DNA of 42,607 bases from Elusimicrobiota bacterium (GCA_016218495.1 JACRDU010000094.1:1-42607), one strand, 5' to 3'; positions 7,421-42,349 are shown, counted from the stretch's first letter. Translations and numbers: made by a program. The notes: a model not told the origin generated them from the sequence alone.

Positions 7421-7879
7421 CTAAGGGCCCTGGGTTTTTATTGACCCCATCAGAGTCCTCGAGCGTCCCGTCATCGGCAGGACCGCCTCGGCGACCTCGA
7501 ACCCGAGACCCCGGGCCTCCTCGGCCAGATGCCGCATCCAGGGCTTGTAGGGCATCCCATTATCAGAGCAGCAGGGGACGACGGCGAACGGAAGGCGGTG
7601 GCGGGCCGCGTACTCGATGATGATGCGGGTCGCACCGTCCGGATGCATCCCTGCCACCAGGTCGCATAGGCAGGGCTCGTCCAAGGACAGCCGCCTTTCG
7701 GCGAAATCCACTGCCAGGTGTTTCCTGCGGGTATCAAACGTGGTAGCCGAGACCCCCAGGCGGGTCAGTTCGTGGTTGAGCCTCCCCATCCCGCCCGCCA
7801 CGTCGTAGACGCGGCCCGCCCGGGGGAAGGTTTCCCGGAGGAACCGGGCAAAGACCTCGAACCGCCGCTTATCCGCCAT
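7421..7879 (-). CDS. Small class I methyltransferase-like protein, 152 aa
   Basis: Last gene of the peptide-modification operon. The N-terminal half carries an AdoMet-binding motif I look-alike, VYDVAGGMGRLNHELTRLG (about residues 24-42), then a strand ending in Asp (TTFDTRRKH). A later segment, FAVVPCCSDNG, resembles the post-motif strand of some RNA and small-molecule methyltransferases. It is much shorter than a typical methyltransferase, so it may be a minimal or non-catalytic version. ATG at 7879 follows the stop of radical SAM gene C by 23 bp; the Shine-Dalgarno sequence is weak. In this operon it could methylate the peptide or a prenylated product; that role is inference. Confidence 0.7.
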   Translation of the reverse strand: MADKRRFEVFARFLRETFPRAGRVYDVAGGMGRLNHELTRLGVSATTFDTRRKHLAVDFAERRLSLDEPCLCDLVAGMHPDGATRIIIEYAARHRLPFAVVPCCSDNGMPYKPWMRHLAEEARGLGFEVAEAVLPMTGRSRTLMGSIKTQGP

Positions 7880-7902
7880 ATCGCAACAGAGGGGCCCGGC
7901 CC

Positions 7903-8892
7903 TTAACGCAGCAGCTTGCGGCGGGCGGTCCACTCGCCGGGGGCCCAGGTGTCGTTGGCGTAGAGCAGCAGCGTGGCGTCGGTCTGGGCCCGGTCGATGA
8001 AATCGCGGACCTCGTCGGAGGCCCAGGCCTGCTTGTAGAGCTCCCAGCATTCGAGGAAGGAGTGCTTGCGCAGGTCGCCGGGCGCGAAGGGCAGGGCGTT
8101 GAGCAGCTTGGCGCGCCCGTTGGGCACGACCAGCATCATCGCCTGCGGGCTCTCCAGGCGGGTCTTCATCTCGGCCAGGATGTCCCACGGGTAGATGGAA
8201 AGCTTGACCGGCTCCTTGAGTCGCTCCGCCTCACGGCGCAGGTCGCGCTCGAAGTGCGCCTGCTCGGCGTCGGACAAGGAGAGGCGGTTCCAGGCCTGCG
8301 CCGCCCGGCCGAGGCGCATCATCGGGCCGGTGACGAAGGTCCGGCAGCCCAGGTCCATGGCCAGACGGTAGGCGTCGAGGGCCTCGCGGGCGTTGAGCTT
8401 GTTGGGGACGAAGACGAACTCGGGCTTGAGGCCGCGGCGCACGAGGCGGCTGATGGAGGCGATGGCGCCGTGGAAGTCCCCGCCGGGGCGCACCGCCTCA
8501 TGGGTATTCGCCGTGGCCCCGTCGACGGAGATCTGGATGCACTGGGCCTTCCACTCCGCCAGCAGGTCGGCTTCCTTCTCGCCGATGGGAAGGCCGTTGG
8601 TCTCGAGCTTGAGCTCGACGCCGCCCTCGACCAAGACCTTCAAAACCTCCCAGATGTAGGGGACGGCCAGCGGCTCCCCGCCGCCGAAGGCCGCATAGGG
8701 CACCCCGGCCGCCACGGCGTCGCGGGCGAGCTTGAGGGCCTCGTCTTTGGTGAGTTCGTCCTTCCAGGCCTTATCGGGGCCCGATTCCTCGCAGCAGTGG
8801 AGGCAGCGGGCCTGACAGCGGTTGGTGACCTGCCACGCAAGGAAGAGGGGGGCCGAGTAGTCTCCTACTGCGGCCCCCCTCTCTTTACTCAC
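7903..8892 (-). CDS. Radical SAM peptide-modifying enzyme C
   Basis: Radical SAM enzyme of the PqqE/SPASM-related type, 329 residues. The cluster motif is CQARCLHC (Cys26, 30, 33), followed by a GGGEP motif, KLETNG and SVDGA. After the cluster it shares an ESGPDKAWKDELTKDEAL segment with the two other radical SAM genes of this operon. The C-terminal region looks like a SPASM remnant (VPNGRAKLLNALPFAPGDLRK) but lacks the Cys set for auxiliary clusters. The GTG start at 8892 overlaps the stop of the precursor peptide gene (GTGA), so the two are translationally coupled. This makes it the strongest candidate for the first enzyme acting on that peptide. Confidence 0.88.
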   Translation of the reverse strand: MSKERGAAVGDYSAPLFLAWQVTNRCQARCLHCCEESGPDKAWKDELTKDEALKLARDAVAAGVPYAAFGGGEPLAVPYIWEVLKVLVEGGVELKLETNGLPIGEKEADLLAEWKAQCIQISVDGATANTHEAVRPGGDFHGAIASISRLVRRGLKPEFVFVPNKLNAREALDAYRLAMDLGCRTFVTGPMMRLGRAAQAWNRLSLSDAEQAHFERDLRREAERLKEPVKLSIYPWDILAEMKTRLESPQAMMLVVPNGRAKLLNALPFAPGDLRKHSFLECWELYKQAWASDEVRDFIDRAQTDATLLLYANDTWAPGEWTARRKLLR

Positions 8893-8999
8893 GTGAACCG
8901 AATGTACGGCTGAGCCATCACGCGCTGGGAGACTTCCTCGAGACAGGGCTTCTCCCAGACGGGCTTCTCAGCGACATTCGATGCGGTTTTGTTGTCCAT
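8889..8999 (-). CDS. Putative RiPP precursor peptide, 36 aa
   Basis: A short gene between two radical SAM genes. It has an excellent ribosome site (AGGAG, 6 nt before the ATG at 8999), and its TGA overlaps the GTG of radical SAM C. The peptide begins MDNKTASNVAEKPVWEKP and ends VMAQPYIRFT, with Trp15, Cys19, Glu21, Glu22, Tyr32, Arg34 and Phe35. The charged N-terminal half with Trp-x-Lys-Pro looks like a leader, and the C-terminal AQPYIRFT like the core. PqqA has a similar size and a comparable W-x-K-P start, but the core differs. No family name is known to me. The PqqD domain encoded upstream would be expected to bind the leader. Confidence 0.82.
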   Translation of the reverse strand: MDNKTASNVAEKPVWEKPCLEEVSQRVMAQPYIRFT

Positions 9000-9045
9000 T
9001 GCTTCTCCTGGTGGTACAGCCGCATTCCGACCCGGTTGACCCGGC

Positions 9046-10005
9046 TCAGATCGTTATGGCCTCCGCTTCCAACGGACGCCAATGGTTCGCCTCGGCGAGC
9101 CGGGACGGCTCCGCGAGGAGCCGGGCGGCGGCCGAGCGCACGGCATCCGAGCGCCACGCGCTGCGATAGTCGTCCCAGGCCTGGGCGAGCGTGCGCAGGC
9201 GGAGGTCCGAGCAGACGAAGGGGAGCGGGGCCGCCACCTTCACCCGGCCGTCCGGCAGCACCAACAGGGTGGCCGGTGGCTGGGCGAGGCCCTCGCGGAG
9301 CCCCTCCTCGATCGTGAATGGAGTATAGCAGTAGTCCATTTTCTTGTTAAGGGCGGCGGACAAGGAGGCCAGGACGCCCCGGAAGGCGGCGTACTGGTCG
9401 GGAGTCGGCTCGAGGCGGTCCCAGAGCCTGGCGGCGGTGCCGAGGCGCATCAGGGCCCCGGTATTGAAACGGAAGGCGCCCAAGGATTCGGCGCGGCGGG
9501 CGACCGCCGCCGCCTCGTGGATATTGACCCGGGTCGGCGCGAAGGTGACCTCGAGGGGCAGGCCCGCCTCGACGACGGCGCGGCAGGCCGCGTGGGCCCT
9601 GGCGAGGACGCCGCCCGGGCGCTGCCCGGCGTAAACGGCCTCGCTGTCGCCGTCGAGGCTGATCTGTACGGAGCGGATGGGGAGTCGCGCCAGCAGCGCG
9701 GCCTCGGCCGGGCCGAAGGCCTGCCCGTTCGTCTCCACCTTGAGCTGGACCCCGCCGCCGCCCAGCGCCTCGGCCGCCTCCCAGAACCAGGGGACGAGGG
9801 TGGGCTCCCCGCCGCACAGCATCACATACGGGACCGAGGCGTCGACGACCTGGCGCGCGAAGGAGAGCGCCTCGTCACGGGAGAGCTCGTCCTTGAGCGC
9901 CCTTCCCGGCGCGGAGTCCGTGCAGCAGTGCAGGCAGGCCAGATTGCAGCCCCTGGTCAGCTGCCAGGAGACGAAGACCGGGCCGCCCAGCACATCGAGG
10001 TTCAA
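9046..10005 (-). CDS. Radical SAM peptide-modifying enzyme B
   Basis: Second radical SAM paralogue, 319 residues. Cluster motif CNLACLHC (Cys20, 24, 27), then TDSAPGRALKDELSRDEAL, CGGEPT, KVETNG and SLDGD. The C-terminal part again resembles a degenerate SPASM region (LPDGRVKVAAPLPFVCSDLR) with only one cysteine. I place the start at TTG 10005, which overlaps the stop of the prenyltransferase gene (TTGA) and has GGAAGG 5 nt upstream; GTG at 9993 is the alternative. A 46-bp gap carrying the precursor's ribosome site follows. Substrate and reaction are unknown; peptide C-C, C-O or C-S bond formation is the family norm. Confidence 0.87.
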   Translation of the reverse strand: MNLDVLGGPVFVSWQLTRGCNLACLHCCTDSAPGRALKDELSRDEALSFARQVVDASVPYVMLCGGEPTLVPWFWEAAEALGGGGVQLKVETNGQAFGPAEAALLARLPIRSVQISLDGDSEAVYAGQRPGGVLARAHAACRAVVEAGLPLEVTFAPTRVNIHEAAAVARRAESLGAFRFNTGALMRLGTAARLWDRLEPTPDQYAAFRGVLASLSAALNKKMDYCYTPFTIEEGLREGLAQPPATLLVLPDGRVKVAAPLPFVCSDLRLRTLAQAWDDYRSAWRSDAVRSAAARLLAEPSRLAEANHWRPLEAEAITI

Positions 10006-10937
10006 AGCAGCCTTCCCGCGACGAGGCCGGCGGTGAAGAGCGTCGTCCCCGCTATGTAGCAGACCACGATGAAACGGACCGCCCCGATGAAGTCGCGCGG
10101 GGTGTCGTAGGTCCGGAAGGCCTCGCGCCCGGAGAGGACCAAGAGCGGCGCCGCCAGCAAGGTGACGAGGCAGGCCGGCGGGAAGAGGCCGGCCAGCACG
10201 CCCGCGACGGGCGTCAGCAGGCCCAGGCCGGCCAGCGCCAGGTAGACCCTCACCCCGTTGAGGCGCCCCACGCGCACGACGATGTTGCGCTTGCCGACGA
10301 GGCGGTCCTGGTGGAAATCCGGGATGGCGTTCACCACGGCCAAGGCCATGATCAGGAGGCCCGGCACCAATGAGGCCAGCAGCGCGCCCCAGGAGAAGCT
10401 CCCGGTCTGCAGATGCAGGCTGCCCAAGGTCATCCAAGGGCCGTAGGATAGGCCGATCATCGTCTCGCCCAGGCCCCGGTAGACCCAGCGGATGGGAGGC
10501 CCCACGTAGAAGACCGCCGCCATGCCGCCGAGCAGGGTGTAGAGCACGATGGGCCAGCCGCCGGCGACGGCGAGGCGGAAGCCCACCGACGCCGCGGCGG
10601 CGAAGGCCGCTATGCCCAGATACAGCACCCAGTCGGGGATGGGGTCCTCGTCCTCAGGATTGAAGACCCGGTCGGTCCCCATGCGCGAATCGAAGTACTC
10701 GTTGAAGGCCTCCACGCCCACCACCGACAGGAAGATGCCGAAAAAACCCGTCCAGAAGACGCCCGGCCGGAAGGAATGCTCGACGCCCCAGGCCCAGGCC
10801 GCCCCCAGGAGGTAGGGGAGCAGCCCCGCGTACAGGAAGAAGCGGTAGCGCACCACGCTGAAGAGCTTCATGACGGCGCGGGGCGCCTTGGCCTTCGGGT
10901 CGAAGTGCGGCGGGTCGGCGACGACGGCTTTGAGCAT
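10002..10937 (-). CDS. UbiA/MenA-family aromatic prenyltransferase
   Basis: Integral membrane prenyltransferase, 311 residues with about eight to nine membrane segments. The first Asp-rich motif reads NEYFDSRMGTD (residues 79-89) and the second NAIPDFHQDRLVGKRN (Asp207, Asp211). These are the Mg-diphosphate sites of UbiA enzymes, and MenA-like relatives carry similar ones. Such enzymes attach an isoprenoid chain to an aromatic or quinone precursor. The start is ATG 10937, overlapping the radical SAM A stop (TGATG). Its place between radical SAM genes and in one unit with a polyprenyl diphosphate synthase suggests that it prenylates a product of the peptide pathway. Menaquinone synthesis is the conservative alternative, but no other men genes are present. 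Confidence 0.9.
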   Translation of the reverse strand: MLKAVVADPPHFDPKAKAPRAVMKLFSVVRYRFFLYAGLLPYLLGAAWAWGVEHSFRPGVFWTGFFGIFLSVVGVEAFNEYFDSRMGTDRVFNPEDEDPIPDWVLYLGIAAFAAAASVGFRLAVAGGWPIVLYTLLGGMAAVFYVGPPIRWVYRGLGETMIGLSYGPWMTLGSLHLQTGSFSWGALLASLVPGLLIMALAVVNAIPDFHQDRLVGKRNIVVRVGRLNGVRVYLALAGLGLLTPVAGVLAGLFPPACLVTLLAAPLLVLSGREAFRTYDTPRDFIGAVRFIVVCYIAGTTLFTAGLVAGRLL

Positions 10938-11962
10938 CAGACGAACACCCACTTATGGAGGGCCGAGGTCAGCTTAGGGTCGGCGGCCATGTCGTCGACG
11001 AACTTCGCCACCTTCGGGTCCTTCCAGGCGGTCTGGAAGTTGGCCCAGACCTTGGTGACGGCATCCTTGCGCAGGTCGCCGCAGACGAAGGGCAGCGCGT
11101 TGATGAGCTTCACCAGCCCGTTGGGGAGGATGATGAACAGGGCCGCGGGGTTCTCCAGACGATAACGGAGTTCGTCCAGCAGGCCCATCTCGTGGAAATA
11201 GACCCGCATGCGGCCGTCGTATTGGCTCGTCTTCGCGTGCAGGGTCTTGAAGTACTCGACATACTGCTCGTCGGACGGGACGAGCAGGTGCCAGGTCCTC
11301 ACCGCGTTGCCCGTGTACATCGTGCGCCCGGTGTAGAAGCTGTAGGCGCCCAGCGAGAAGGCCAGGTCGACGGCCTGGGCGATCTCGTGGGTGTTGAACT
11401 TGGTCGGCGAATAGTTGATCTCGATGGGGACGCCCGCCGCCTTGAGGTTGCGCAGGCCGGCCAGCATGGTGTCCCAGTTGCCGTGCACCCGCATCTTGTT
11501 GAAGGTCTCCTTCGAGCCTCCGTCCATCGAGACCTGCACGGCCTTGACGCCGAGCTTCTTCAGGCGGGCGCAGGCCTCGGGAGTCAGGAAGTGCCCGTTG
11601 GTCTCCACCTTGAGCTGCACGCCGTTCGAGCACAGGTACTCGACCATCTCCCAGAAGTGGGGATGGACCATGGGCTCCCCGCCCGAGAAGGACATGTAGG
11701 GGACCTGGTGCTCGACCATCTGCTTGAGCACGGCGAAGACCCGCTCCTTGGACAGCTCGTCCTTGAAGGCCTTGCCGGGGCCCGACTCCTCGATGCAGTG
11801 CAGGCAGGCCAGGTTGCACTCGTTGGTGATCTGCCAGGCCACATACAGCGGAGCGCCCAGGTCTCCGGTGCCGGTATCGCCGGGGCGCGCGGCCGGGTTG
11901 GCGCCCGTGAAGCCCAGGCTCGAGCTCGTCTGGAGCTTCTCGGTCAGGCTCTGGGGCGTCAC
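10937..11962 (-). CDS. Radical SAM peptide-modifying enzyme A
   Basis: Radical SAM enzyme, 341 residues. Cluster motif CNLACLHC (Cys49, 53, 56), then ESGPGKAFKDELSKERVF, FSGGEPM, KVETNG and SMDGG. The terminal region, LPNGLVKLINALPFVCGDLRKD, matches the SPASM position but retains only one Cys, so an auxiliary Fe-S cluster is unlikely. A Ser/Gly/Ala-rich N-terminal extension of about 35 residues precedes the domain. GTG at 11962 overlaps the stop of the PqqD-domain gene (GTGA). It is a clear paralogue of enzymes B and C in the same operon. Confidence 0.88.
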   Translation of the reverse strand: MTPQSLTEKLQTSSSLGFTGANPAARPGDTGTGDLGAPLYVAWQITNECNLACLHCIEESGPGKAFKDELSKERVFAVLKQMVEHQVPYMSFSGGEPMVHPHFWEMVEYLCSNGVQLKVETNGHFLTPEACARLKKLGVKAVQVSMDGGSKETFNKMRVHGNWDTMLAGLRNLKAAGVPIEINYSPTKFNTHEIAQAVDLAFSLGAYSFYTGRTMYTGNAVRTWHLLVPSDEQYVEYFKTLHAKTSQYDGRMRVYFHEMGLLDELRYRLENPAALFIILPNGLVKLINALPFVCGDLRKDAVTKVWANFQTAWKDPKVAKFVDDMAADPKLTSALHKWVFV

Positions 11963-12405
11963 TCGGTGACCAGGCCCTTGGACTTGAGGTCGGAGATGTA
12001 GGCCTTCGCGTCGGCCTCGAGGCTCCCGGCCTTGTCCTGGAAACGGTCTTTGAGCCGCCCGAGGACTTCGGACTCGGCGCCGCCGGCGACTATCTCGCGC
12101 ACGATGGCCGCGCCGGTCTGCGACAGGGTGAACACCTTCTCGGACTTCGTCTCGAAGAGCACTCCGCCGAACTTCTCTTCGCGGAACTTCACATATTGCG
12201 CCAGTTTCATCCGTCCCTCCTGTGCGGCCGTCCGGGGCGCGGCGGGGTCGAGCGCCTCGCGGGCGACGATCCACTCCATCTTCGAGCGCAGGAAGTCGCG
12301 CAGGGCGCGCCCGCTCAGGTCCCGGCCTTCCCCGGGCTGCTGCCCGCCCGCCCTGTACTCGCCCGACCTCCAGGCTTCCCGTGCCAGCTCCTGGTAATGG
12401 CTCAT
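11959..12405 (-). CDS. PqqD-like RiPP recognition element with N-terminal extension
   Basis: The C-terminal 83 residues (from Met66) form a PqqD/RRE-type domain: FREEKFGGVLFETKSEKVFT, then LSQTGAAIVREIV, then a terminal helical part with LKSKGLVTE. Such domains bind leader peptides and present them to radical SAM enzymes. The frame is open through a 65-residue hydrophilic N-terminal region starting at ATG 12405, which overlaps the stop of the polyprenyl synthase gene (TGATG). An internal ATG at 12210 has a strong AGGAGG 7 nt upstream, so a stand-alone 83-residue PqqD may be made as well, or instead. I report the long form because of the coupled start; the extension matches nothing I know. Confidence 0.8.
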   Translation of the reverse strand: MSHYQELAREAWRSGEYRAGGQQPGEGRDLSGRALRDFLRSKMEWIVAREALDPAAPRTAAQEGRMKLAQYVKFREEKFGGVLFETKSEKVFTLSQTGAAIVREIVAGGAESEVLGRLKDRFQDKAGSLEADAKAYISDLKSKGLVTE

Positions 12406-13352
12406 CAGAATTCCCGCCTGAACATCAGGGTCATGAATTCGCGCAATTCGCCCGCCGGAGCCCTGACAGGCAGGGCGTCCACCCAAGGCAGCATGGCTTC
12501 CATGATGCGCCGGGCTTCCGCGCGCGCCGCGTCCAGGTGGCCCCGTTCGCCGAGGAGCGCGAGGGCGTCGTCGAGGGCGGCTGGCTGCCGGGATCCCCAC
12601 AGCGCGGTCCAGCGCGCGCGCGAGGCATCGTCGTCCATGGCCAGGATGCCGGGCAAGGTCAGGCGCCCGTTGTGCAGGTCCTGGCCTGGCGCCTTCCCCG
12701 CCACGGCCTCGGAGAGCGTGAAATCGTGGATGTCGTCGACGATCTGCAGCAGGATGCCGGCCGCCACCCCGAGGCGGGGAGGGCCGTCCGGGTCATGCTC
12801 GAGCGGGCTCTCCTCGGAGAGCACCCGCCCGGCCCACTTGAACAGGGCGCTGGTCTTGCGCGCGGCGACGCCGTAGTAGCCCTCGGCGGACACGTTGAGC
12901 GAGCCCTTCAGGAACTCCTCCTGCAGCTCGCCCACCGTCATCTCCTGGACCGCCTCGACCAACGAGCGCACAGCCTCGGCCGAGATCAGGGCCGCCTCGG
13001 CCATGCCCTGGGTGAACGCCAGGTCGCCGAGCAGGATGCCGGTGCGGTCGCCGAAGAGGGCGTTCGGGGTCGGCACCCCGCGCCGCAGCAGCCCTTCGTC
13101 GATGCAGTCGTCGTGCAGCAAGGAGGCGTTGTGCACCAACTCTACCGCGCGGGCCGCGGATTCCGCCGTGGGGGGCTCTACACCAAGCGCTCTCCCTAAT
13201 AAGAGGGTATAGCGCGCCCGGAGGAGCTTGCCGGGCTGGCCGACATAGGACGCCAGATGGTCTCCGACCCGGCCGCCGAGGGCGGCCACCCGACGCTCTA
13301 GACCCGAACGGACACGATCGAGGGAACCGTCCAGAGTCTCGGTGGTCGTCAT
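12405..13352 (-). CDS. Polyprenyl diphosphate synthase (trans-isoprenyl)
   Basis: Condenses isopentenyl diphosphate onto an allylic primer to make linear polyprenyl diphosphate. Both aspartate-rich motifs are intact: DDCID (residues 81-85, within HNASLLHDDCIDEG) and DDIHD (206-210, within LLQIVDDIHDFT). The length of 315 residues is normal. It is the first gene of the operon and presumably supplies the chain used by the UbiA-type enzyme two genes downstream. The start is ATG 13352; a TTG at 13370 is also in frame, but it lies just upstream of the -10 box and would precede the predicted transcript. Chain length cannot be read reliably from sequence. Confidence 0.92.
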   Translation of the reverse strand: MTTTETLDGSLDRVRSGLERRVAALGGRVGDHLASYVGQPGKLLRARYTLLLGRALGVEPPTAESAARAVELVHNASLLHDDCIDEGLLRRGVPTPNALFGDRTGILLGDLAFTQGMAEAALISAEAVRSLVEAVQEMTVGELQEEFLKGSLNVSAEGYYGVAARKTSALFKWAGRVLSEESPLEHDPDGPPRLGVAAGILLQIVDDIHDFTLSEAVAGKAPGQDLHNGRLTLPGILAMDDDASRARWTALWGSRQPAALDDALALLGERGHLDAARAEARRIMEAMLPWVDALPVRAPAGELREFMTLMFRREF

Positions 13353-14429: not shown

Positions 14430-15623
14430 TCAGGGACGGTTCAGCCAGAGCCGCGGGGGGACCCGCGCGGCCGCCTTCAGCGCCCCCACCCAGTCCCCCG
14501 TCCGCGCCGACGCCCTCGCACGCAGGAGCGCGGTCAGGTCCCTGTGATGGGGCCACAGCTCGGCCTTTTCCAGGTCGGCCAGCGCCCCGCGCGGGTCTCC
14601 GGCCTCGAGGCGCGCCTGGGCCCGGAGCTGGAAATGCCACTCCGGCTCGGGACGCAGGGCGGCACAGCGGTCGAGGTCCTGCAAGGCCTCGCTCACCCTG
14701 GCCGCGGCCAGCCGACAGCAGGCCCGCCATGCCAGGGCTTGGACCCAATCCGGGGAACGCTTCACCAACCCGTCGAAGAACGCCTCGGCGGCGGCGGCAT
14801 CCCCCTTCGCCATGAGGCGACATCCCTCCTCCAACTCGCCGGCCAGGGCAGCTCCTACGACCGGCTCCCGCCCCCGGGCGCGCAGGGGAGGCACGAAGAG
14901 GGTCACGAACTCGTTGGGCCCCGCCAGGGCCGCCTTGAGGTCTCTGAGCGGCACCGTGACGAGCTTCCCGGCCGGCTCGGAGACCCAGGGGCTGACCACC
15001 AGAGTGACGGGGTGTTCAAGAGGATAGGAGGCGCCGAGCCGGGACAGGAAGGAGTCCAGGCTGGCCATCTGATGGGGCTTGAGCAGATATCCCACCTTCA
15101 CGATGATGGTCGGCACTTCGGGATTGAGCGGGACGACGGTCATAAGGCCGGCGAAATCGTCGGCGTCGTAGATGTGCAGGCCGCTCCAGAGCATCGTCAT
15201 GCCCAGGGAGGCCAGGACGCCGTCCAGGGAGGAGACGGAATTGAGGACTTCGTAGGGGATGCCGCGTTCCCGGCAGGCCTCGATGAGGTCGTAGGCCAGG
15301 CTGGAGAGGAAGGTGGCATGCCCGTAGTTGAGCACGACGACCTCGCGCCCCTCGGCGAGGCGGTCCAGGACGGCGGCGACCTTCCTCGCGGACGCCGCGG
15401 CCGGCGGCCCATCCTTGCCTCCCCCGTCGAGGATGCGGATGTCGGAGCAGTAAGCCCGCAACGGGCCCAGGGAGGCCTCGTCGAGCGCATCGGTGCAGAG
15501 CACGCCGCAGGACTTGATGGCCTCGACGGTCTCCAAGGTCATCTGCCTGAGGTCCATCCCGAATCCGGCCAGGACCAGCCGCCCCTTCCCCTGCCTCGGG
15601 TCTCCCATACCAGGCGGAATCAT
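14430..15623 (-). CDS. Tetrapyrrole-methylase-fold protein (borosin MTase-like) with TPR tail
   Basis: The N-terminal 250 or so residues have the tetrapyrrole methylase fold. In order they show GRLVLAGFGMDLRQMTLET, VVVLNYGHATFLSS, EVLNSVSSLDGVLASLG, GLHIYDADDF, YPLEHPVTLVVSPWV and FVTLFVPPL. This order and wording closely follow the peptide-backbone N-methyltransferase OphMA of the borosin RiPPs more than CobA or CbiF. The Arg/Tyr pair I recall as catalytic in OphMA (Arg72, Tyr76) is not evident in the corresponding Gly/Ala-rich loop. The C-terminal 140 residues are helical TPR-like repeats (DWVQALAWRACCRLAAARVSE, WHFQLRAQARLEAGDPRGAL). The start is ATG 15623; Met6 (15608) is an alternative. 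Confidence 0.75.
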   Translation of the reverse strand: MIPPGMGDPRQGKGRLVLAGFGMDLRQMTLETVEAIKSCGVLCTDALDEASLGPLRAYCSDIRILDGGGKDGPPAAASARKVAAVLDRLAEGREVVVLNYGHATFLSSLAYDLIEACRERGIPYEVLNSVSSLDGVLASLGMTMLWSGLHIYDADDFAGLMTVVPLNPEVPTIIVKVGYLLKPHQMASLDSFLSRLGASYPLEHPVTLVVSPWVSEPAGKLVTVPLRDLKAALAGPNEFVTLFVPPLRARGREPVVGAALAGELEEGCRLMAKGDAAAAEAFFDGLVKRSPDWVQALAWRACCRLAAARVSEALQDLDRCAALRPEPEWHFQLRAQARLEAGDPRGALADLEKAELWPHHRDLTALLRARASARTGDWVGALKAAARVPPRLWLNRP

Positions 15624-21740: not shown

Positions 21741-22895
21741 ATGGACCTCCCGGACGGCCGCACGGTCACCATCGCCCCGGCCAGGCGCCACGACGCGCTG
21801 CGCCTGCGCTGGCTCTATCACCGCGTCTACGGCGGGAGCTACCCATTCTCGCTGGTCTACAACCCCCAGGAGTGCACGGCCGCCATCGAGAGCGACAAGT
21901 ACCTGTGGTACCTGGCGCGCTGCGGCGACGACGCCGTGGCCAGCCTCGTGTTCAACGTCGACCGGGACATCCGCCTCGGCAAGGCCTTCGGGGCCGTCGT
22001 CGCCCCGGAGTTCCGGGGGCACGACCTGGCCGAGAAGATGCTGGAGATGGGGCTGGCGGAGCTGGTCGGTCCCGACAAGGCCGTGCGCAGCGTCTATGCC
22101 ACCACGCGGACGGTGAGCCTGGCCCCGCAGCGCCTGGCCGAGAAGGCGGGGTTCAAGAAGCTGGGCATCTTCCCCAACGCGCACAAGGTCCAGCGTTCCG
22201 AGACCCACACCCTGGCGGTCTATTATGGAGAGGGCTCCCTGGAGGGGCGCAGCACCCGGCCGCGCCTGCCCGCCATGCTCGAGCCCTTCTTCGCGCTGGT
22301 CCGCCGGGAGACGGGCATCCCGGAGGCGGAGTTCGTCGACCTGCCGGTGGACTGGAAGGGGCCGGAGGAACCCCTGCCCTTCGAGGTGCTGCAGGCCCCG
22401 CAGTTCCTGCAGCGCCGGCTGCGCGACATGCGCGCCTCAAGGCGCCTGGCGCTCGACTTCTTCCCGTTCCACGACCCGAACATGCTCCTGATGAGCCCCG
22501 ACGGCCGCTCGGAGATCTTCGTCTACCGTTCCGCCAAGGACGGACACTGCGTCATCGTCGGGGCGGCCTCCGACGACCTGGACCTGCGCACCCTGCTCGA
22601 GCAGGGCGCGAGCTTCCTCGAGGGGATGGGCGTGCGCTACATCGAGGCCCTCGTCGAGGCCTCCGAGCCCGAGCGCGTGCAGCACGCCCTGATGGCGCGC
22701 TTCCTGCCCTCGGCCTACTACCCGGCCATGCGCTGGGGCCAGGGCGGCGGCCGGGACTACATCGTGCTGTCGCGCTCGCTGGCGGTGCTGGACTTCCGCG
22801 GCATAACGCTCCAGCCGGCCTACTCCCGCTACCTGCGCGAGTACTTCCGCCTGTGGCGCGACCAGAACGTCGGGCGCGTCCTCCCCGAACAGTGA
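21741..22895 (+). CDS. GNAT-family acyltransferase with C-terminal extension, 384 aa
   Basis: The N-terminal 150 or so residues match the GNAT fold: GKAFGAVVAPEFRGHDLAEKM carries the acetyl-CoA-binding region, and RLAEKAGFKKLGI is the usual end of the domain. The C-terminal 200 residues are not recognised, but a segment (DLDLRTLLEQGASFLEGMGVRYIEALVEA) looks like a second, degenerate GNAT-like half. It is the first gene of a three-gene unit; its stop overlaps the GTG of the LuxE gene. In lux systems an acyltransferase (LuxD, unrelated fold) supplies the acyl group, so this enzyme may play an analogous role. That is inference. Confidence 0.8.
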   Translation: MDLPDGRTVTIAPARRHDALRLRWLYHRVYGGSYPFSLVYNPQECTAAIESDKYLWYLARCGDDAVASLVFNVDRDIRLGKAFGAVVAPEFRGHDLAEKMLEMGLAELVGPDKAVRSVYATTRTVSLAPQRLAEKAGFKKLGIFPNAHKVQRSETHTLAVYYGEGSLEGRSTRPRLPAMLEPFFALVRRETGIPEAEFVDLPVDWKGPEEPLPFEVLQAPQFLQRRLRDMRASRRLALDFFPFHDPNMLLMSPDGRSEIFVYRSAKDGHCVIVGAASDDLDLRTLLEQGASFLEGMGVRYIEALVEASEPERVQHALMARFLPSAYYPAMRWGQGGGRDYIVLSRSLAVLDFRGITLQPAYSRYLREYFRLWRDQNVGRVLPEQ

Positions 22896-24010
22896 GCGAC
22901 GACGCGGTCGAGGCGCTCTTCGAGTCCGACCCCTTCCCGCGGCGGCGCGGCGGGCGCTTCGTCGCCGCCCTGCGCGCCTGCGCGAGCCGCCAGGCCCGGC
23001 GCTTCCCGGCCATACGCGCGCTCTACGGACGGGAGGGATTCCGGCCCGACGCCCTGCGCTCCGAGAGCTCCGTCCTGGACATCCCCTTCCTCTATGTCTC
23101 GGTCTTCAAGGAGCGCGACCTCCCGCCCGCCCGGCCGTTCCGCCCGGCCCTGACCCTGACCTCGAGCGGGACGGGCGGGCAGAAGAGCCGCATCGTGCTC
23201 GACGCCGGGTCGCTCAGGCGCGTGAAGGCCTCCGCCGAGAGGGTTTACGCGGCGCTGGGCATGGTCGACAAGGGGACGGCCGCGAACTACCTTTGCATGA
23301 CCTACGACCCGCGCCAGGCCAGGGACCTCGGCACGGCCTTCACCGACGAGCTCCTCACCTCCTTCACGGCCCGGGCCAGAGTCCACTATGCCATACGCCG
23401 CCCCCCCGGAGGCGGCCCCTTCCGCTTCGACCTGGAGGCGACCCTGCGGGCCCTGCGCGAGATGGCCGCCACCGGCCTGCCGCTGCGCGTGCTGGGATTC
23501 CCCGCCCATGTCCTCTTCACCCTGCGCGCCTGGCGGGAGCGCGGCTGGCCCGACCTGCGCCTGGGGCGCGGGAGCTGGGTCATGACGGGAGGCGGCTGGA
23601 AGAGCCACGCCGGCGACGCCATCCCCAAGCCCGAGTTCCGCCGGCTGGTCTCCTCCTGGCTGGGGATTCCCGCCGGCAACATCCGTGACCTCTACGGGCT
23701 CGTCGAGCACGGCATACCCTATGTGGAATGCCGCCGGGGACGGATGCATGTCCCCGACTACGCGCGCGTCGTCGTGCGCGACCCGGTCACGCTGAGGCCG
23801 CTGCCCTATGGGCGCAAGGGGCTGCTCCACCTCATCACCCCGTACCTGTCGAGCTTCCCGTCCTTCTCCGTGCTGGCCTCGGACTGGGGCCTCAAGCGCC
23901 CGCGCTGCGCCTGCGGCCTCCCCGGCGAGACGCTCGAACTGCTCGGCAGGGCCGGGACCTCGCCCGCCAAAGGGTGCGCCATCACGGCCGCGGAGCTGCT
24001 CAAGCGATGA
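22892..24010 (+). CDS. LuxE-like acyl-protein synthetase
   Basis: ATP-dependent enzyme that activates a fatty acid as acyl-AMP and holds it as a thioester for reduction by LuxC. It has 372 residues, typical for LuxE. The adenylation motif is seen as LTSSGTGGQKSRIVLD. A mid-section WVMTGGGWKSHAG and DLYGLVEHG follow the family pattern. Near the C-terminus there is a Cys (Cys362, in AKGCAITAAELLKR) at the distance expected for the LuxE acyl-carrying cysteine. GTG 22892 overlaps the GNAT stop (GTGA), and the stop overlaps the next ATG (ATGA). No luciferase genes are in the window. Confidence 0.86.
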   Translation: MSDDAVEALFESDPFPRRRGGRFVAALRACASRQARRFPAIRALYGREGFRPDALRSESSVLDIPFLYVSVFKERDLPPARPFRPALTLTSSGTGGQKSRIVLDAGSLRRVKASAERVYAALGMVDKGTAANYLCMTYDPRQARDLGTAFTDELLTSFTARARVHYAIRRPPGGGPFRFDLEATLRALREMAATGLPLRVLGFPAHVLFTLRAWRERGWPDLRLGRGSWVMTGGGWKSHAGDAIPKPEFRRLVSSWLGIPAGNIRDLYGLVEHGIPYVECRRGRMHVPDYARVVVRDPVTLRPLPYGRKGLLHLITPYLSSFPSFSVLASDWGLKRPRCACGLPGETLELLGRAGTSPAKGCAITAAELLKR

Positions 24011-26535
24011 CCCGCGCATTCCTCTGGGGGAAGACGGCCCGCTGGGACGGGCTCAGCGCTTCGGGCGCCGAGCGCCTGTGCTCCGAAGCCCTCCGGCGCC
24101 GGGAGCGGGCCGCCGCAAGGGACTGCTGGACGACGATCTCCGTGCTCCACGAGACCGGCCGGCTCTGGGCGTCCCCCTCCTCCGCCTGGCGGCGCAGGGC
24201 CCAGGCCCTGATGCCGCGCGTCACGGGCTTCTCCCCGGCCATGGTGCGCTCCACGCTGGAGCTCATCCCGCGCATCCTCGAGCGCGGAGCGCTGACCGCC
24301 CGCCTGCGCGCCGAGCTCGGCCGCGAGGACGCGCTCGATTCCTGGCGCCTGGACCCCGACGGAGGAGCGGCTCTCAAGGCGCTGCCGCTGGGCGCCGTGC
24401 TCCATGTGGCGGCGGGGAACATCTTCCTCGGCTGCATCGATTCGGCGGTGATGAGCCTGCTGACCAACAACGCCACCGTCCTGCGCACCTCGTCGGCCGA
24501 CCCCGAGTTCCCCCTGCTCTTCGCCGAGAGCCTGCGCCGCGCCGACCGGCGCGGGGCGTTGGCCGGTACCCTCGCCGCGGTGTCGTGGCCCAGCGGCGAC
24601 GCGGCCGTGGAGTCCGTCTTCAAGCGCCGCCTGCAGGGCGTGGTGGTCTGGGGCGGGGAGAAGGCCGTGTCCGCCTACCGGGAGGACCTCGGCGCAGGCT
24701 GCCGCCTCGTCGCCTTCGGCCCCAAGCTCTCCTTCGCCGTGGTCAGCCGCGCCGGGCTGGAGCGCTGGGGCGTCGCCGAGGCCGCGCGGCGGGCCGCGCG
24801 CGACGTCGCCTGGTGGGACCAGGCCGCCTGCGCGTCCCCGCAGACCCTCTTCGTCGAGCACCCGCGCCCCGACGCCTTCCTCGACGCCCTGGCCCGCGAG
24901 CTGGCGCGCGCGGGGCGGACCCAGCCTCCGGGACGGCTGAGCCCGGACGCCGCCGCATCCGTCGTCGAAGAACGGCACCGGGCCCTGGCCGCCGAGCTGT
25001 GCGGCAAGGGACGCCTGCGCGCCGGGGACGGCTGGACCGTCGCGTGGCGCTCCGAGCCCGCGCTGCGCGCCTCCCCGCTCAACCGCTTCCTCCAGGTCTC
25101 GCCTTACCGGGACCTCCGCCATCTGCGCACCCTGGTCGAGCCGTCGCGCCCCTATCTCCAGACCGCGGGGCTGCTCGTCGCGCCGGAGGAGGCGGCGGCG
25201 TACGCCGACGCGCTGTCGGCGGCCGGGGCCGCGCGCACCCCGGAGCTGGGCGCCATGCTCGAGGCCGGCGGCAAGGAGCCCCACGACGGACGCTACCCTC
25301 TCGGGGAGCTGGTGCGCTGGGTGGCCGGCCCGGCCGCAGCCGCGGCCGACGGTCGCAAGGCCCTGGCCTCGCTGACCGCCCAGGCCCGCGCCGAATCCCC
25401 CTTCTACCGCCGCCGGCTGGCCCGGCCGACGGCGACCACGGACAAGGGCGACCTGCTGCGCCACTCCCCCCCCGCCTCGTCGGCCCTTCTGACCCGGGCG
25501 GGGGAGGGCGAAGGACGCCTGGTCCTGGCCAGCGGAGGCTCCACCGGAGCCCCGAAGTTCTCGCTGTACACGCAGCGCGAGTTCGAGGAGACCTGCCGCT
25601 GGCTGGCCTTCAGCCTGCGCCAGGCCGGCCTCGGACCGGGCGACACCGTGGCCAACCTCTTCGTCGCCGGGAACCTGTGGTCGTCTTTCCTGGCGGTCTC
25701 GGAGGCGGCCAAGGCCCTGGGCGTCACCCATCTGCCCATCGCCGGGACCTCGGACCCGGCCTTCGCCCTGGACGCGCTGCGCCGCTTCAAGGCGGACGCC
25801 GTCATAGGCCTGCCGTCCAGCCTGGCCGCGCTGGCCGAGCGGCCCGAGGCGCGGGGCCTCACGGTGCGCAAGGTCTTCTACGGCGGAGAGCATGCCACGG
25901 AGGGGGTCTGCCGCCTGCTGCGCCTGCGCCTGGGCGCGCGCCTCATCCGCTCGGCCGGCTACGCCAGCGTCGACGCCGGCCTCATCGGCTTCCAATGCCC
26001 GCGCTGTCCGGGCAGCGTCCATCACGCCGCCGAGGGCCTGCAGAAGGTGGAAATCGTCGGCGGGGAGGTCGTGGCGACCAACCTCGTCAGGCGCCTGATG
26101 CCCGTCATCCGCTACCGGACCGGGGACCGGGGCCGCTGGGTAGGCGCTCCCTGCCCCTGCGGCCATCCCTCGCCCCTCTTCGAGCTCCTGGGCCGCGTGG
26201 ACGACCGCGTGAACGTCGGCGGCGCCCACCTCGACGCCGGCGACGCCGCGCGGGCGGTGGCCTCGGTGGCGGGGCTGAGCCCCTTCTTCCAGCTGCGCAT
26301 CGACGCGGCCGGAGGGAAGGACACCCTGCTGCTGCGCGCCGAAAGGCGCTCGGGGGCCCGGGCCGGGCTGGAGGAGCGCCTGGCGGCCGCATTGCTCGGA
26401 CACTCCGAGGAGCTCCGCGACGCCGTAGCGCGCGGCTGGCTGAGGGCCCCCGCCGTCGAAATCCTCCCCCCAGGCGGCCTCCCCCGCCTGCCGCGCACCG
26501 GCAAGGTCCGCCGCGTCGTGGATTTGCGCGCCTAG
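24007..26535 (+). CDS. Fusion: LuxC-like acyl reductase plus PaaK/LuxE-like adenylating domain
   Basis: An 842-residue two-domain protein. The N-terminal half (about 1-440) is LuxC-like: GAVLHVAAGNIFLGCIDSAVMSLL (nucleotide-binding region) and WWDQAACASPQTLFVE with the likely catalytic Cys275; LuxC reduces LuxE-bound acyl groups to aldehydes with NADPH. The C-terminal half (about 470-842) is an acyl-adenylating domain of the phenylacetate-CoA ligase type, with LASGGSTGAPKFSLY, IRYRTGDRGRWVGAPCPCG, ELLGRVDDRVNVGG and a C-terminal TGKVRRVVDLRA. A fusion of these two is unusual. ATG 24007 overlaps the LuxE stop. A degenerate copy of this gene's last codons is found at 28293-28337. Confidence 0.88.
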   Translation: MTRAFLWGKTARWDGLSASGAERLCSEALRRRERAAARDCWTTISVLHETGRLWASPSSAWRRRAQALMPRVTGFSPAMVRSTLELIPRILERGALTARLRAELGREDALDSWRLDPDGGAALKALPLGAVLHVAAGNIFLGCIDSAVMSLLTNNATVLRTSSADPEFPLLFAESLRRADRRGALAGTLAAVSWPSGDAAVESVFKRRLQGVVVWGGEKAVSAYREDLGAGCRLVAFGPKLSFAVVSRAGLERWGVAEAARRAARDVAWWDQAACASPQTLFVEHPRPDAFLDALARELARAGRTQPPGRLSPDAAASVVEERHRALAAELCGKGRLRAGDGWTVAWRSEPALRASPLNRFLQVSPYRDLRHLRTLVEPSRPYLQTAGLLVAPEEAAAYADALSAAGAARTPELGAMLEAGGKEPHDGRYPLGELVRWVAGPAAAAADGRKALASLTAQARAESPFYRRRLARPTATTDKGDLLRHSPPASSALLTRAGEGEGRLVLASGGSTGAPKFSLYTQREFEETCRWLAFSLRQAGLGPGDTVANLFVAGNLWSSFLAVSEAAKALGVTHLPIAGTSDPAFALDALRRFKADAVIGLPSSLAALAERPEARGLTVRKVFYGGEHATEGVCRLLRLRLGARLIRSAGYASVDAGLIGFQCPRCPGSVHHAAEGLQKVEIVGGEVVATNLVRRLMPVIRYRTGDRGRWVGAPCPCGHPSPLFELLGRVDDRVNVGGAHLDAGDAARAVASVAGLSPFFQLRIDAAGGKDTLLLRAERRSGARAGLEERLAAALLGHSEELRDAVARGWLRAPAVEILPPGGLPRLPRTGKVRRVVDLRA

Positions 26536-26546
26536 CGCCAGCCTCG
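26502..26546 (+). repeat. Direct repeat, copy 1 (3' end of LuxC-PaaK gene)
   Basis: This segment spans the last codons and the stop of the fusion gene. It recurs at 28304-28348 with an offset of 1802 bp and most positions identical, including the stop and about 10 bp beyond it. Confidence 0.8.
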
Positions 26547-26729
26547 GTCCCGATTCAATTCGATACCAGCGCCCGTTGTCGGCAAGGGACGTGCGGGTGA
26601 CCCCATTGTAGTTGACTTTCGGAGAGTAAGGGTCTACCTTAGTCTGGAAGCGAGGGCCATTGAGAATCGGATTGAAAGGCAAGCCAGTCAAAGTCCGCCA
26701 CGGCCCCAGTCTTCGGCCGGCCTAATCGT

Positions 26730-40451: not shown

Positions 40452-41000
40452 TTAGACCAGCTCGGTCAGCAGCTCGGGGCGCGGCTGGGCGATGACGACG
40501 CGCTGGACGAGTAGCCCGCGCAGGCCGGCGCGCTCGGCGGCCACCGAGGCGGCGGTCTCGCAGTCGGCGATGGAGCCGGTGAAGCTGACGAAGGCCTTGC
40601 CGCCCAGCGCCATCGCCAGGCGGATCTCGACGAGGCGGATGTTGGCGGACTTGGCCGCCGCGTCGGCGGCCTCGATGAGCGAGGCGACCGAGAAGGTCTC
40701 GACGATGCCCAGGGCCTCGAGCTTGCCGGTGACGGCCACGCCGGAGATGGCCGGAAAGATGGAGGGGTGCAGGTGCGGGATGACGAAATGGTCGATGTGG
40801 GCCTCGGCGGCCTTGGCCACCCCGGCCTCCACGGCGGCCTGCACGTCGGCCACCTCGCCGGCGACGACCACGGCGTACTTCCCCGGGCACATCGTGCGCG
40901 CCACGAGGATCTCCACCGCCGCGGCCTTGAGCATGGCGTCGGTCGTCTCGAAGCCCTTGGCCATGCTGCTGAGCTCGACTCCCCCGATGGCGTCCTTCAT
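40452..41000 (-). CDS. pduT: BMC-T microcompartment shell protein PduT
   Basis: 182 residues with two tandem BMC domains (AIGGVELSSMAKGFETTDAM and ALGIVETFSVASLIEAADAA). Trimers form pseudohexameric shell tiles. Cys38 in RTMCPGKYAVVV sits exactly where PduT carries the ligand for its central [4Fe-4S] cluster, so it should conduct electrons through a shell. It starts 4 bp inside pduS (overlap ATGA). No other shell, vertex or enzyme genes of a microcompartment occur in the window. Confidence 0.95.
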   Translation of the reverse strand: MKDAIGGVELSSMAKGFETTDAMLKAAAVEILVARTMCPGKYAVVVAGEVADVQAAVEAGVAKAAEAHIDHFVIPHLHPSIFPAISGVAVTGKLEALGIVETFSVASLIEAADAAAKSANIRLVEIRLAMALGGKAFVSFTGSIADCETAASVAAERAGLRGLLVQRVVIAQPRPELLTELV

Positions 41001-42349
41001 GCGGCCTCCGCTGAGATCTCCACGCAGTCGTCCACGGCCGTCACCGCGCCCGTGATGCTGGCGTGGACGGGCACGCCCAGGGCGTCTTCCGGCACGTCTC
41101 CGACGACCTGGCCGCGTTCCACGCGGGCGCCGGCCTTCACCGTCGCCACCGCGGGGACGCCCACATGCTGCTTGAGCGGTATGCGCACGCGCGCGGGGCG
41201 CACCTCGGCGTCGACCAGGTGCGCCTCGGCGTCGTAGTCGGCCAGCCCCAGGCGCTCGATGAGCTGGGCGATGGGGGCCAGGCGGTATTCGCGCACCGGA
41301 TGGGCCTTCGGGGCGGCGCCGGCGTTGAGGACGGATTCCTTCCAGCCCAGCTTCACCTCGGCGAGGTCGCGCTTGGCGCTGACGCAGACCTTGCCCGGGG
41401 CCAGGTTCTCGGGGCAGGAATAGAGGGTGCAGAGCTGGCACTCGCAGCACATGAGGGCGTACTGGTTCCAGGTCTTGCGGTCGGGCTTGGAGAAGAGCAG
41501 CCCCCGCATCACCTTGTGGGGCTCCACCTTGTAGCCGAGCAGGTAGCGCGGGCAGAGCTCGGTGCACAGGCTGCACTGGTCGCAGACGGACTTCCCCACC
41601 CTCTCGTCCTGCGTGCGCGGGGCGCCCTTGCGCCCGATGAGGGGATGGGTGAGCGGAAGCACGATGAGGCCGCCCGAAGTCTTGACGGCGGGCTTGGCGA
41701 AGTCGGTCAGGACCTTGCCCATCATCGCCCCGCCGTCGAGGGCGGCGTACTCCCTGACGGTGGGGCCGCCGGCCAGCTTCAAGGCCTCGGAATAGGGCGT
41801 GCCGATGGGGACCTTCACGGTCACGGGCTTCTTCACGGCCCCCGTCACGGTGAAATAGGTGTCGACGACGGGGCCCTGGGCGGCCCGGCTCATGTTGAAG
41901 AGCGTCTCCACGTTGTTGACCACGACCCCCACCTGGATGGGGATGCCGCCCGGCGGGATGAGGCGTCCCGTGGCCTCGTAGACCAGGCAGTACTCGTCGC
42001 CGGCGGGATAGACGTCCTTGAGCTTGAGAACGCTGACCCCGGCGCGACGCTTGACCGCGGCCTCGAGCTTCTCCACCAGCGCCTTGTGCTTGGCCTTGAC
42101 GCCTACGATGCCCGTCGCGGCGCCCGTGGCGCGCATCAGGGCCTCGAGGCCGTCCAGGACCTCCTCGGTATGGCGCAGGAACAGCTCCAGGTCCTTATGA
42201 AGGAGGGGTTCGCATTCGGCGGCGTTTACGATGACGGTGTCGGCCTTCGAGGCGGCCTTCACATACGAGGGGAAGCCGGCGCCGCCGGCGCCGACCACGC
42301 CGGCGCGGCGGATGGTCCGCGCGAAATCGTTCAAGGCCGGGCCTGACAC
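40997..42349 (-). CDS. pduS: PduS-like RnfC-family Fe-S flavoprotein
   Basis: 450 residues, like PduS. The N-terminal RnfC-like FMN/NADH region has GVVGAGGAGFPSYVK and NAAECEPLL, followed by an SLBB segment (AVKKPVTVKVPIGTPYSEAL) and two [4Fe-4S] motifs, CDQCSLCTELCP (256-266) and CCECQLCTLYSCP (301-312). In Pdu compartments it reduces cobalamin or passes electrons to PduT. The GTG start at 42349 is 6 nt from a TACAAT box, so the pair heads its own transcript. An aldehyde, B12 or other redox compartment elsewhere in the genome is implied. Confidence 0.93.
   Translation of the reverse strand: MSGPALNDFARTIRRAGVVGAGGAGFPSYVKAASKADTVIVNAAECEPLLHKDLELFLRHTEEVLDGLEALMRATGAATGIVGVKAKHKALVEKLEAAVKRRAGVSVLKLKDVYPAGDEYCLVYEATGRLIPPGGIPIQVGVVVNNVETLFNMSRAAQGPVVDTYFTVTGAVKKPVTVKVPIGTPYSEALKLAGGPTVREYAALDGGAMMGKVLTDFAKPAVKTSGGLIVLPLTHPLIGRKGAPRTQDERVGKSVCDQCSLCTELCPRYLLGYKVEPHKVMRGLLFSKPDRKTWNQYALMCCECQLCTLYSCPENLAPGKVCVSAKRDLAEVKLGWKESVLNAGAAPKAHPVREYRLAPIAQLIERLGLADYDAEAHLVDAEVRPARVRIPLKQHVGVPAVATVKAGARVERGQVVGDVPEDALGVPVHASITGAVTAVDDCVEISAEAA

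Follow-up and report, generated by a model that had tools for sequence, protein, structure and literature searches.

A stretch of DNA of 42,607 nucleotides from an Elusimicrobiota bacterium (GCA_016218495.1 JACRDU010000094.1:1-42607), referred to here as the window, carries on its minus strand an operon in which the genes of a redox cofactor made as a ribosomally synthesised and post-translationally modified peptide (RiPP) are joined to a quinone prenyltransferase gene. It is probable that this operon makes a peptide-derived isoprenoid quinone-type redox carrier, perhaps menaquinone or a near relative. The bolder proposal, which we advance tentatively as falling somewhat short of an even chance, is that it constitutes a third route to menaquinone or to a directly related naphthoquinone, and would be the first to carve an isoprenoid quinone head group out of a ribosomal peptide with radical S-adenosylmethionine (SAM) enzymes. 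The quinone reading is favoured because markers of the Men and futalosine pathways are absent, respiratory genes lie beside about half of the proteobacterial operons, and Rhodopila globiformis, another carrier of the operon, contains menaquinone. Of the two products that an earlier reading of this DNA (the original prediction) had left side by side, the peptide-derived isoprenoid quinone is on these grounds now the better one, and a membrane-bound peptide natural product is less favoured. We infer the chemical steps and the identity of the product from the gene set, its conservation, its co-occurrence with other genes, its genomic context and the family assignments.

Gene content and conservation of the operon

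The window is contig C59 of genome G000, a metagenome-assembled genome (MAG) of an Elusimicrobiota bacterium that is 95.4% complete. Eight minus-strand genes, running from 13352 down to 7421, were confirmed, and are listed below with the two conserved segments of the precursor peptide.

12405..13352, minus strand: polyprenyl diphosphate synthase (PF00348, 133.9 bits) with both DDxxD motifs, which would supply the prenyl donor
11959..12405, minus strand: PqqD-type peptide-binding protein, a RiPP recognition element (RRE) (PF05402, 34.7 bits), conserved in the operon
10937..11962, minus strand: radical SAM enzyme A, with a GTG start codon (11962) and a SkfB/PqqE-like fold; the enzyme retained in the class II operons described below
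10002..10937, minus strand: UbiA-family prenyltransferase (UbiA domain, 71 bits), nearest to MenA and UBIAD1
9046..10005, minus strand: radical SAM enzyme B, TTG start (Radical_SAM domain), recurring in related loci
8889..8999, minus strand: precursor peptide of 36 amino acids, MDNKTASNVAEKPVWEKPCLEEVSQRVMAQPYIRFT, conserved across loci
8928..8957, minus strand: leader motif W-x2-P-x-[LMI]-E-[ED]-V-S of the precursor, conserved; putative PqqD-binding segment by comparison with lasso-peptide leaders
8892..8921, minus strand: invariant core VMAQPYIRFT of the precursor (57 loci, 39 nucleotide versions, zero amino-acid changes; phylum pattern search)
7903..8892, minus strand: radical SAM enzyme C, GTG start (Radical_SAM domain), recurring in related loci
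7421..7879, minus strand: methyltransferase-like open reading frame (ORF), co-directional, outside the conserved system (no homologue in 61 loci)

All eight genes of the original prediction are present, and Pfam and NCBIfam scores bore out the synthase, the PqqD protein, the three radical SAM enzymes and the UbiA prenyltransferase, the Radical_SAM domains of the three enzymes scoring 92.6, 63.4 and 70.6 bits (Pfam). The 36-amino-acid ORF at 8999-8889 had no family match in either database. The junctions proved tighter than predicted, since not six but all seven are either an overlap (synthase/PqqD, PqqD/A, A/UbiA, UbiA/B and peptide/C) or a gap below 50 bp, namely 46 bp with a plausible ribosome site between B and the peptide, and 23 bp between C and the methyltransferase-like ORF. 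The latter ORF, formerly counted as a member of the system, was rejected: it gave only a trivial match in Pfam and NCBIfam, and a homologue was absent from every one of the 61 related loci, including two from the same genus. A plasmid- or virus-borne system was also rejected, with no plasmid match and no viral relative found.

A set of 97 relatives was searched with radical SAM enzyme A, and a scan of genome contigs with the UbiA protein gave the 61 loci, whose gene order was established by Blast mapping. Among the 97 relatives, a spaced trio, in which A is followed after 1 kb by B and after a further 0.2 kb by C, was found in most members of the window's order. Elusimicrobiota share the order PqqD-A-UbiA-B-peptide-C with Alpha-, Beta- and Gammaproteobacteria, the proteobacterial carriers including Rhodopila globiformis, Acidocella, Acidiphilium, Rhodovibrio sodomensis and betaproteobacterium GR16-43. 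Because the A-UbiA-B-peptide-C arrangement recurs across phyla, the operon is confirmed as real and is not a chance assembly. Within the 61 loci, a prenyl synthase gene in front of the operon was seen in Elusimicrobiota only; the further genes conserved beside the operon there are mostly lineage-specific housekeeping genes.

Six loci (L080-L084 and L086), from MAGs labelled Elusimicrobia, Planctomycetota, Bacillota and Deltaproteobacteria, carry a shorter arrangement, peptide-PqqD-A-UbiA, with one radical SAM enzyme and a UbiA of about 42% identity; in one of the six, the peptide position falls off the contig. We refer to these loci as class II, and to the longer arrangement as class I. A second radical SAM enzyme of the operon clade was not found in the class II genomes, and a tree grouped the class II enzyme with A, with B and C as further paralogues (support 96/91). 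Class II is possibly a minimal or ancestral pathway. The predicted use of three radical SAM enzymes therefore holds for class I but is not universal, as a one-enzyme form exists.

The C-terminal VMAQPYIRFT, directly followed by the stop codon, is identical in 57 loci, in which it is encoded by 39 different nucleotide sequences, and it is therefore selection, not recent copying, that maintains the peptide core. The only altered core is VTAQPYIRFT in L048, and in L049, L066 and L081 the expected peptide site lies beyond the end of the contig. Homologous operons without the peptide, which the original prediction had named as a sign against it, did not turn up, the peptide being present in every complete operon. 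The only aromatic residues of the core are Tyr and Phe. RRE proteins bind a YxxPxL motif in lasso leaders, and by analogy the W-x2-P-x-[LMI]-E-[ED]-V-S leader motif, conserved across loci, would be the PqqD-binding site. Of 341 Elusimicrobiota genomes searched, 47 contain the peptide motif, and 44 of these belong to the window's order; the reversed control pattern gave zero matches. Within this order, 12 of 56 genomes lack the motif; three of them (G011, G036 and G052) keep operon fragments, which leaves nine lacking it versus 6.2 expected from MAG incompleteness. Two genomes, G027 (97%) and G028 (99%), look truly operon-negative.

An encoded precursor with a conserved leader and core lies beside its enzymes in 57 loci, the PqqD/RRE protein scores over the PF05402 cut-off, and the radical SAM CX3CX2C cysteines are invariant in A, B and C, all of which are features expected of a RiPP pathway, in which the enzymes would modify the peptide. 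None of the known RiPP families in NCBIfam was matched over its cut-off. MftC was the best NCBIfam match for all three radical SAM enzymes (95-126 bits), and A also scored against the AhbD and NirJ2 models, far below cut-off. Radical SAM enzyme A keeps C-x3-C-x-H-C plus one further invariant Cys and lacks the SPASM cysteines; its predicted model (predicted local distance difference test score 83) is most like the RiPP maturases SkfB and PqqE.

Three operon UbiA proteins, drawn from both classes, matched MenA models best in NCBIfam, below cut-off (TIGR00751: 53.4 bits for the window protein and 68.2 for the Rhodopila protein versus a cut-off of 102.15). Both Asp motifs, N-x3-D-x3-G-x-D and P-D-x2-Q-D, are conserved, and the nearest solved structure, by sequence profile (8e-12) and by fold, is that of UBIAD1, the menaquinone-4 synthase. 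A tree of the UbiA superfamily including the R. globiformis paralogues had saturated branches and was set aside, and hidden Markov model scores and PDB matches were used instead. A grouping of this UbiA gene with men or ubi genes, which the original prediction had named as a second sign against it, was not seen.

Quinone pathways and respiratory neighbours of the carriers

Forty-six Elusimicrobiota genomes, 42 of them in the window's order, were tested for quinone pathways, absences being judged by marker families and mostly in MAGs. Complex I (NuoH family) was present in all of them (46/46, 42/42 in the order) and COX1 in 42 of 46, the four genomes without it (G007, G019, G022 and G041) retaining the operon. 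MqnA/MqnD (PF02621) was found in none of the 42 genomes of the order and in none of 23 other operon genomes, and MenD over cut-off in none of the 46 Elusimicrobiota and in one of the 23. Two genomes of a sister family (G058 and G059) have MqnA/D and MenG/UbiE, and the peptide motif is absent from them. The window's genome has two UbiA genes, that of the operon and one located 2.5 kb from COX1, a position that we take to be the usual one of CtaB, whereas G007 and G041 have no UbiA gene besides that of the operon. The most evident candidate for a quinone prenyltransferase in these bacteria is therefore the operon protein.

In Proteobacteria, the operon is present in R. globiformis DSM 161 (L050, genome G343), in which no MenD over cut-off (best 73.8 bits versus 244) and no MqnA/D were found; three other Rhodopila genomes likewise have no MenD over cut-off and no MqnA/D. 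Among the five UbiA proteins of R. globiformis (haem O synthase, 4-hydroxybenzoate prenyltransferase, BchG, a HAD-UbiA fusion and the operon protein), only the last is MenA-like. The membranes of this species contain ubiquinone, menaquinone and rhodoquinone, and menaquinone was modelled at the QA site in a 2.24 Å cryo-electron microscopy structure (PMC9640540). The menaquinone MK-9 is also cited for R. globiformis in PMC12542754. MK-10 has been reported for Rhodovibrio, of the Rhodovibrionaceae (PMC7179689), with Rhodovibrio salinarum covered in PMC11316597, and R. sodomensis carries the operon (L076).

The proteobacterial hosts have UbiE, and the 4-hydroxybenzoate UbiA was confirmed in R. globiformis; the operon quinone would therefore be additional to ubiquinone. 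Fumarate reductase, hydrogenase, NapC/MtrAB and the reaction centre are typical partners of low-potential quinones. Genes lying beside the operon encode quinol:fumarate reductase (L061, PRK08626 over cut-off, and L073), [NiFe] hydrogenase subunits or maturation proteins (L058, L070 and L077), NapC with MtrA/MtrB or multihaem cytochromes (L041, L052, L063 and L067) and a reaction-centre protein (L048). Such families were found in 10 of 19 operon windows versus 1 of 60 control windows of 20 kb, taken from seven operon-bearing proteobacterial genomes and searched with the same queries (p 6e-7, indicative because the families were chosen post hoc). When only matches to the queries of other loci were counted, 5 of the 19 operon windows remained (p 0.003, also indicative).

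As a separate observation, three Rhodopila genomes have one further gene immediately downstream of the radical SAM C gene, an arrangement that is not general:

L065:7313-7765, L075:12986-13462 and L085:13013-13504, plus strand: COQ10/RatA-like START-domain gene, whose product is a possible quinone-binding partner

Proposed pathway and alternative readings

In the pathway that we propose, the 36-amino-acid precursor would be translated and then bound through its W-x2-P-x-[LM] leader motif by PqqD, which would present it to radical SAM enzyme A, assisted in class I by B and C, for the remodelling of VMAQPYIRFT into an aromatic, hydroquinone-like head group. The MenA/UBIAD1-like UbiA would add a long polyprenyl chain, for which Elusimicrobiota would use the synthase encoded in the operon and Proteobacteria another synthase of the host, and peptidases would release the product. 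In the window's order, this product may be the main respiratory quinone; in Proteobacteria, it may be a second quinone, of low potential, alongside ubiquinone. A peptide-derived membrane quinone would explain the invariant core, the occurrence of the operon throughout a respiring order that lacks Men and Mqn markers, the neighbouring genes and the menaquinone of Rhodopila.

Several observations weigh against this proposal. Class II works with one radical SAM enzyme, leaving B and C without a clear role, and neither a peptidase nor an oxidase gene is a recurrent neighbour of the operon. MenG/UbiE over cut-off was found in none of the 19 genomes tested in the window's order, so that the product there need not be methylated like menaquinone. 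The link between the Rhodopila operon and menaquinone is correlative, and G342, the genome of L048, has MenD and MenA in addition to the operon, being the only such operon genome. The neighbour families were picked after inspection of the loci, hence the indicative nature of the p-values. Finally, G027 and G028, which are 97-99% complete and encode complex I and COX1, are without the operon, MqnA/D and MenD over cut-off; another quinone source or salvage therefore exists in the order.

The product could instead be a prenylated, membrane-anchored peptide redox cofactor, that is, a lipid-tailed analogue of pyrroloquinoline quinone (PQQ) or mycofactocin, dedicated to particular dehydrogenases or reductases outside the diffusible quinone pool. 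The core parts (PqqD, radical SAM, invariant peptide) are as in PQQ and mycofactocin, redox enzymes adjoin the operon, and the invariance of all ten core residues goes beyond the need of a one-residue head group. However, the neighbours are quinone-linked modules that vary by locus, a pattern more in keeping with a shared pool than with a single partner enzyme, an order with complex I but without known quinone pathway markers is missing a bulk carrier, and the menaquinone of R. globiformis would be left unexplained. We thus consider such a cofactor unlikely.

Less probable still is a role in cytochrome cofactor maturation, with UbiA acting as a haem O synthase, the radical SAM enzymes as AhbD/NirJ haem enzymes and the peptide as a carrier or regulator. 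Although radical SAM A gives scores with the AhbD and NirJ2 models as well as with that of MftC, and genes for haem and cytochrome c assembly are found near class II locus L081, the AhbD/NirJ scores are far under cut-off, the UbiA is MenA/UBIAD1-like and not CtaB-like, R. globiformis has a separate CtaB, and the operon is kept in the four genomes without COX1. We give equally little credence to a prenylated molecule unrelated to respiration, with the hosts relying on another quinone pathway: G027 and G028 seem able to respire although they lack the operon, and the pathway absences rest on marker families, but the MenA-like UbiA, the neighbours and the Rhodopila menaquinone would then be a coincidence. 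A prenylated RiPP antibiotic or signal peptide might be imagined from the ribosomal precursor with its leader, RRE and radical SAM enzymes, and from the peptide prenylation known in cyanobactins and ComX, but is very doubtful, as the core stays the same from one phylum to another whereas the cores of bioactive RiPPs tend to diversify, genes for export, immunity or regulation are not recurrent neighbours of the operon, and nearly all members of an order have it. An antimicrobial RiPP was rejected as the principal explanation on the invariant core and the lack of recurring export or immunity genes.

The proposed quinone pathway was also compared with known systems. The operon shares with PQQ (PqqA, PqqD, PqqE) a small precursor with a core Tyr, a PqqD protein, a radical SAM enzyme of similar fold and the logic of a redox cofactor, but PqqA has Glu-x3-Tyr whereas the operon core has Met four residues before Tyr, the operon enzymes are without the SPASM cysteine set, a prenyltransferase is added, and the scores are low (81.9 for radical SAM A versus a PqqE cut-off of 381, and 20.9 for PqqD versus 46). 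With mycofactocin (MftA, MftB, MftC), it shares an RRE protein, a radical SAM enzyme and a precursor with an invariant C-terminus. However, MftA ends in Val-Tyr and the operon peptide in Phe-Thr, the scores reach 125.9 versus 265 for MftC and 16.8 versus 33 for MftB, and the operon has no glycosylation genes and an added prenyltransferase. Prenylated RiPPs (cyanobactins, ComX) have a ribosomal peptide and prenyl transfer in common with the operon, but their prenyltransferases are soluble and not of the UbiA family, the prenyl groups are short, the products are secreted and the cores vary. The Men and futalosine routes share a MenA/UBIAD1-like UbiA, a respiratory context and the menaquinone of R. 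globiformis, but MenD and MqnA/D are lacking in the tested genomes of the order and in Rhodopila, and the operon head group would be peptide-derived; to our knowledge, both menaquinone routes known so far begin at chorismate. Methyl-plastoquinone, recently found in Nitrospirota and made in steps that use homologues of ubiquinone, plastoquinone and menaquinone enzymes, is likewise a respiratory quinone in lineages without the common routes but, unlike the operon, involves no peptide or PqqD (PMC13386864). In the open-licence PMC literature, the core motif gave no paper, and searches for combinations of radical SAM, UbiA, PqqD and quinone brought up no description of this system.

Three other loci of the window were recorded:

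14430-15623, minus strand: tetrapyrrole-methylase-type protein with a tetratricopeptide repeat tail, just upstream of the operon and, as far as seen, not conserved beside it; this fold is also used by borosin RiPP enzymes
22829-26600, plus strand: LuxC-type acyl-CoA reductase fused to an AMP-binding region (Pfam), with a LuxE-like frame upstream that was read by eye only
40452-42349, minus strand: bacterial microcompartment (BMC) shell protein with two BMC domains, next to an RnfC/PduS-like flavin and Fe-S protein; this microcompartment locus extends toward the window end

Significance for respiratory quinones

The operon is a concrete, testable candidate for gaps such as that of four species with measured menaquinone in which a pathway is lacking, and this candidate sits in a culturable organism, R. 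globiformis. If the quinone reading is true, the operon is possibly a third, undescribed respiratory quinone route in bacteria without both known menaquinone pathways. It would join the fields of RiPPs and respiratory quinones, and would mean that a bulk electron carrier of the membrane can originate from a peptide encoded by a gene.

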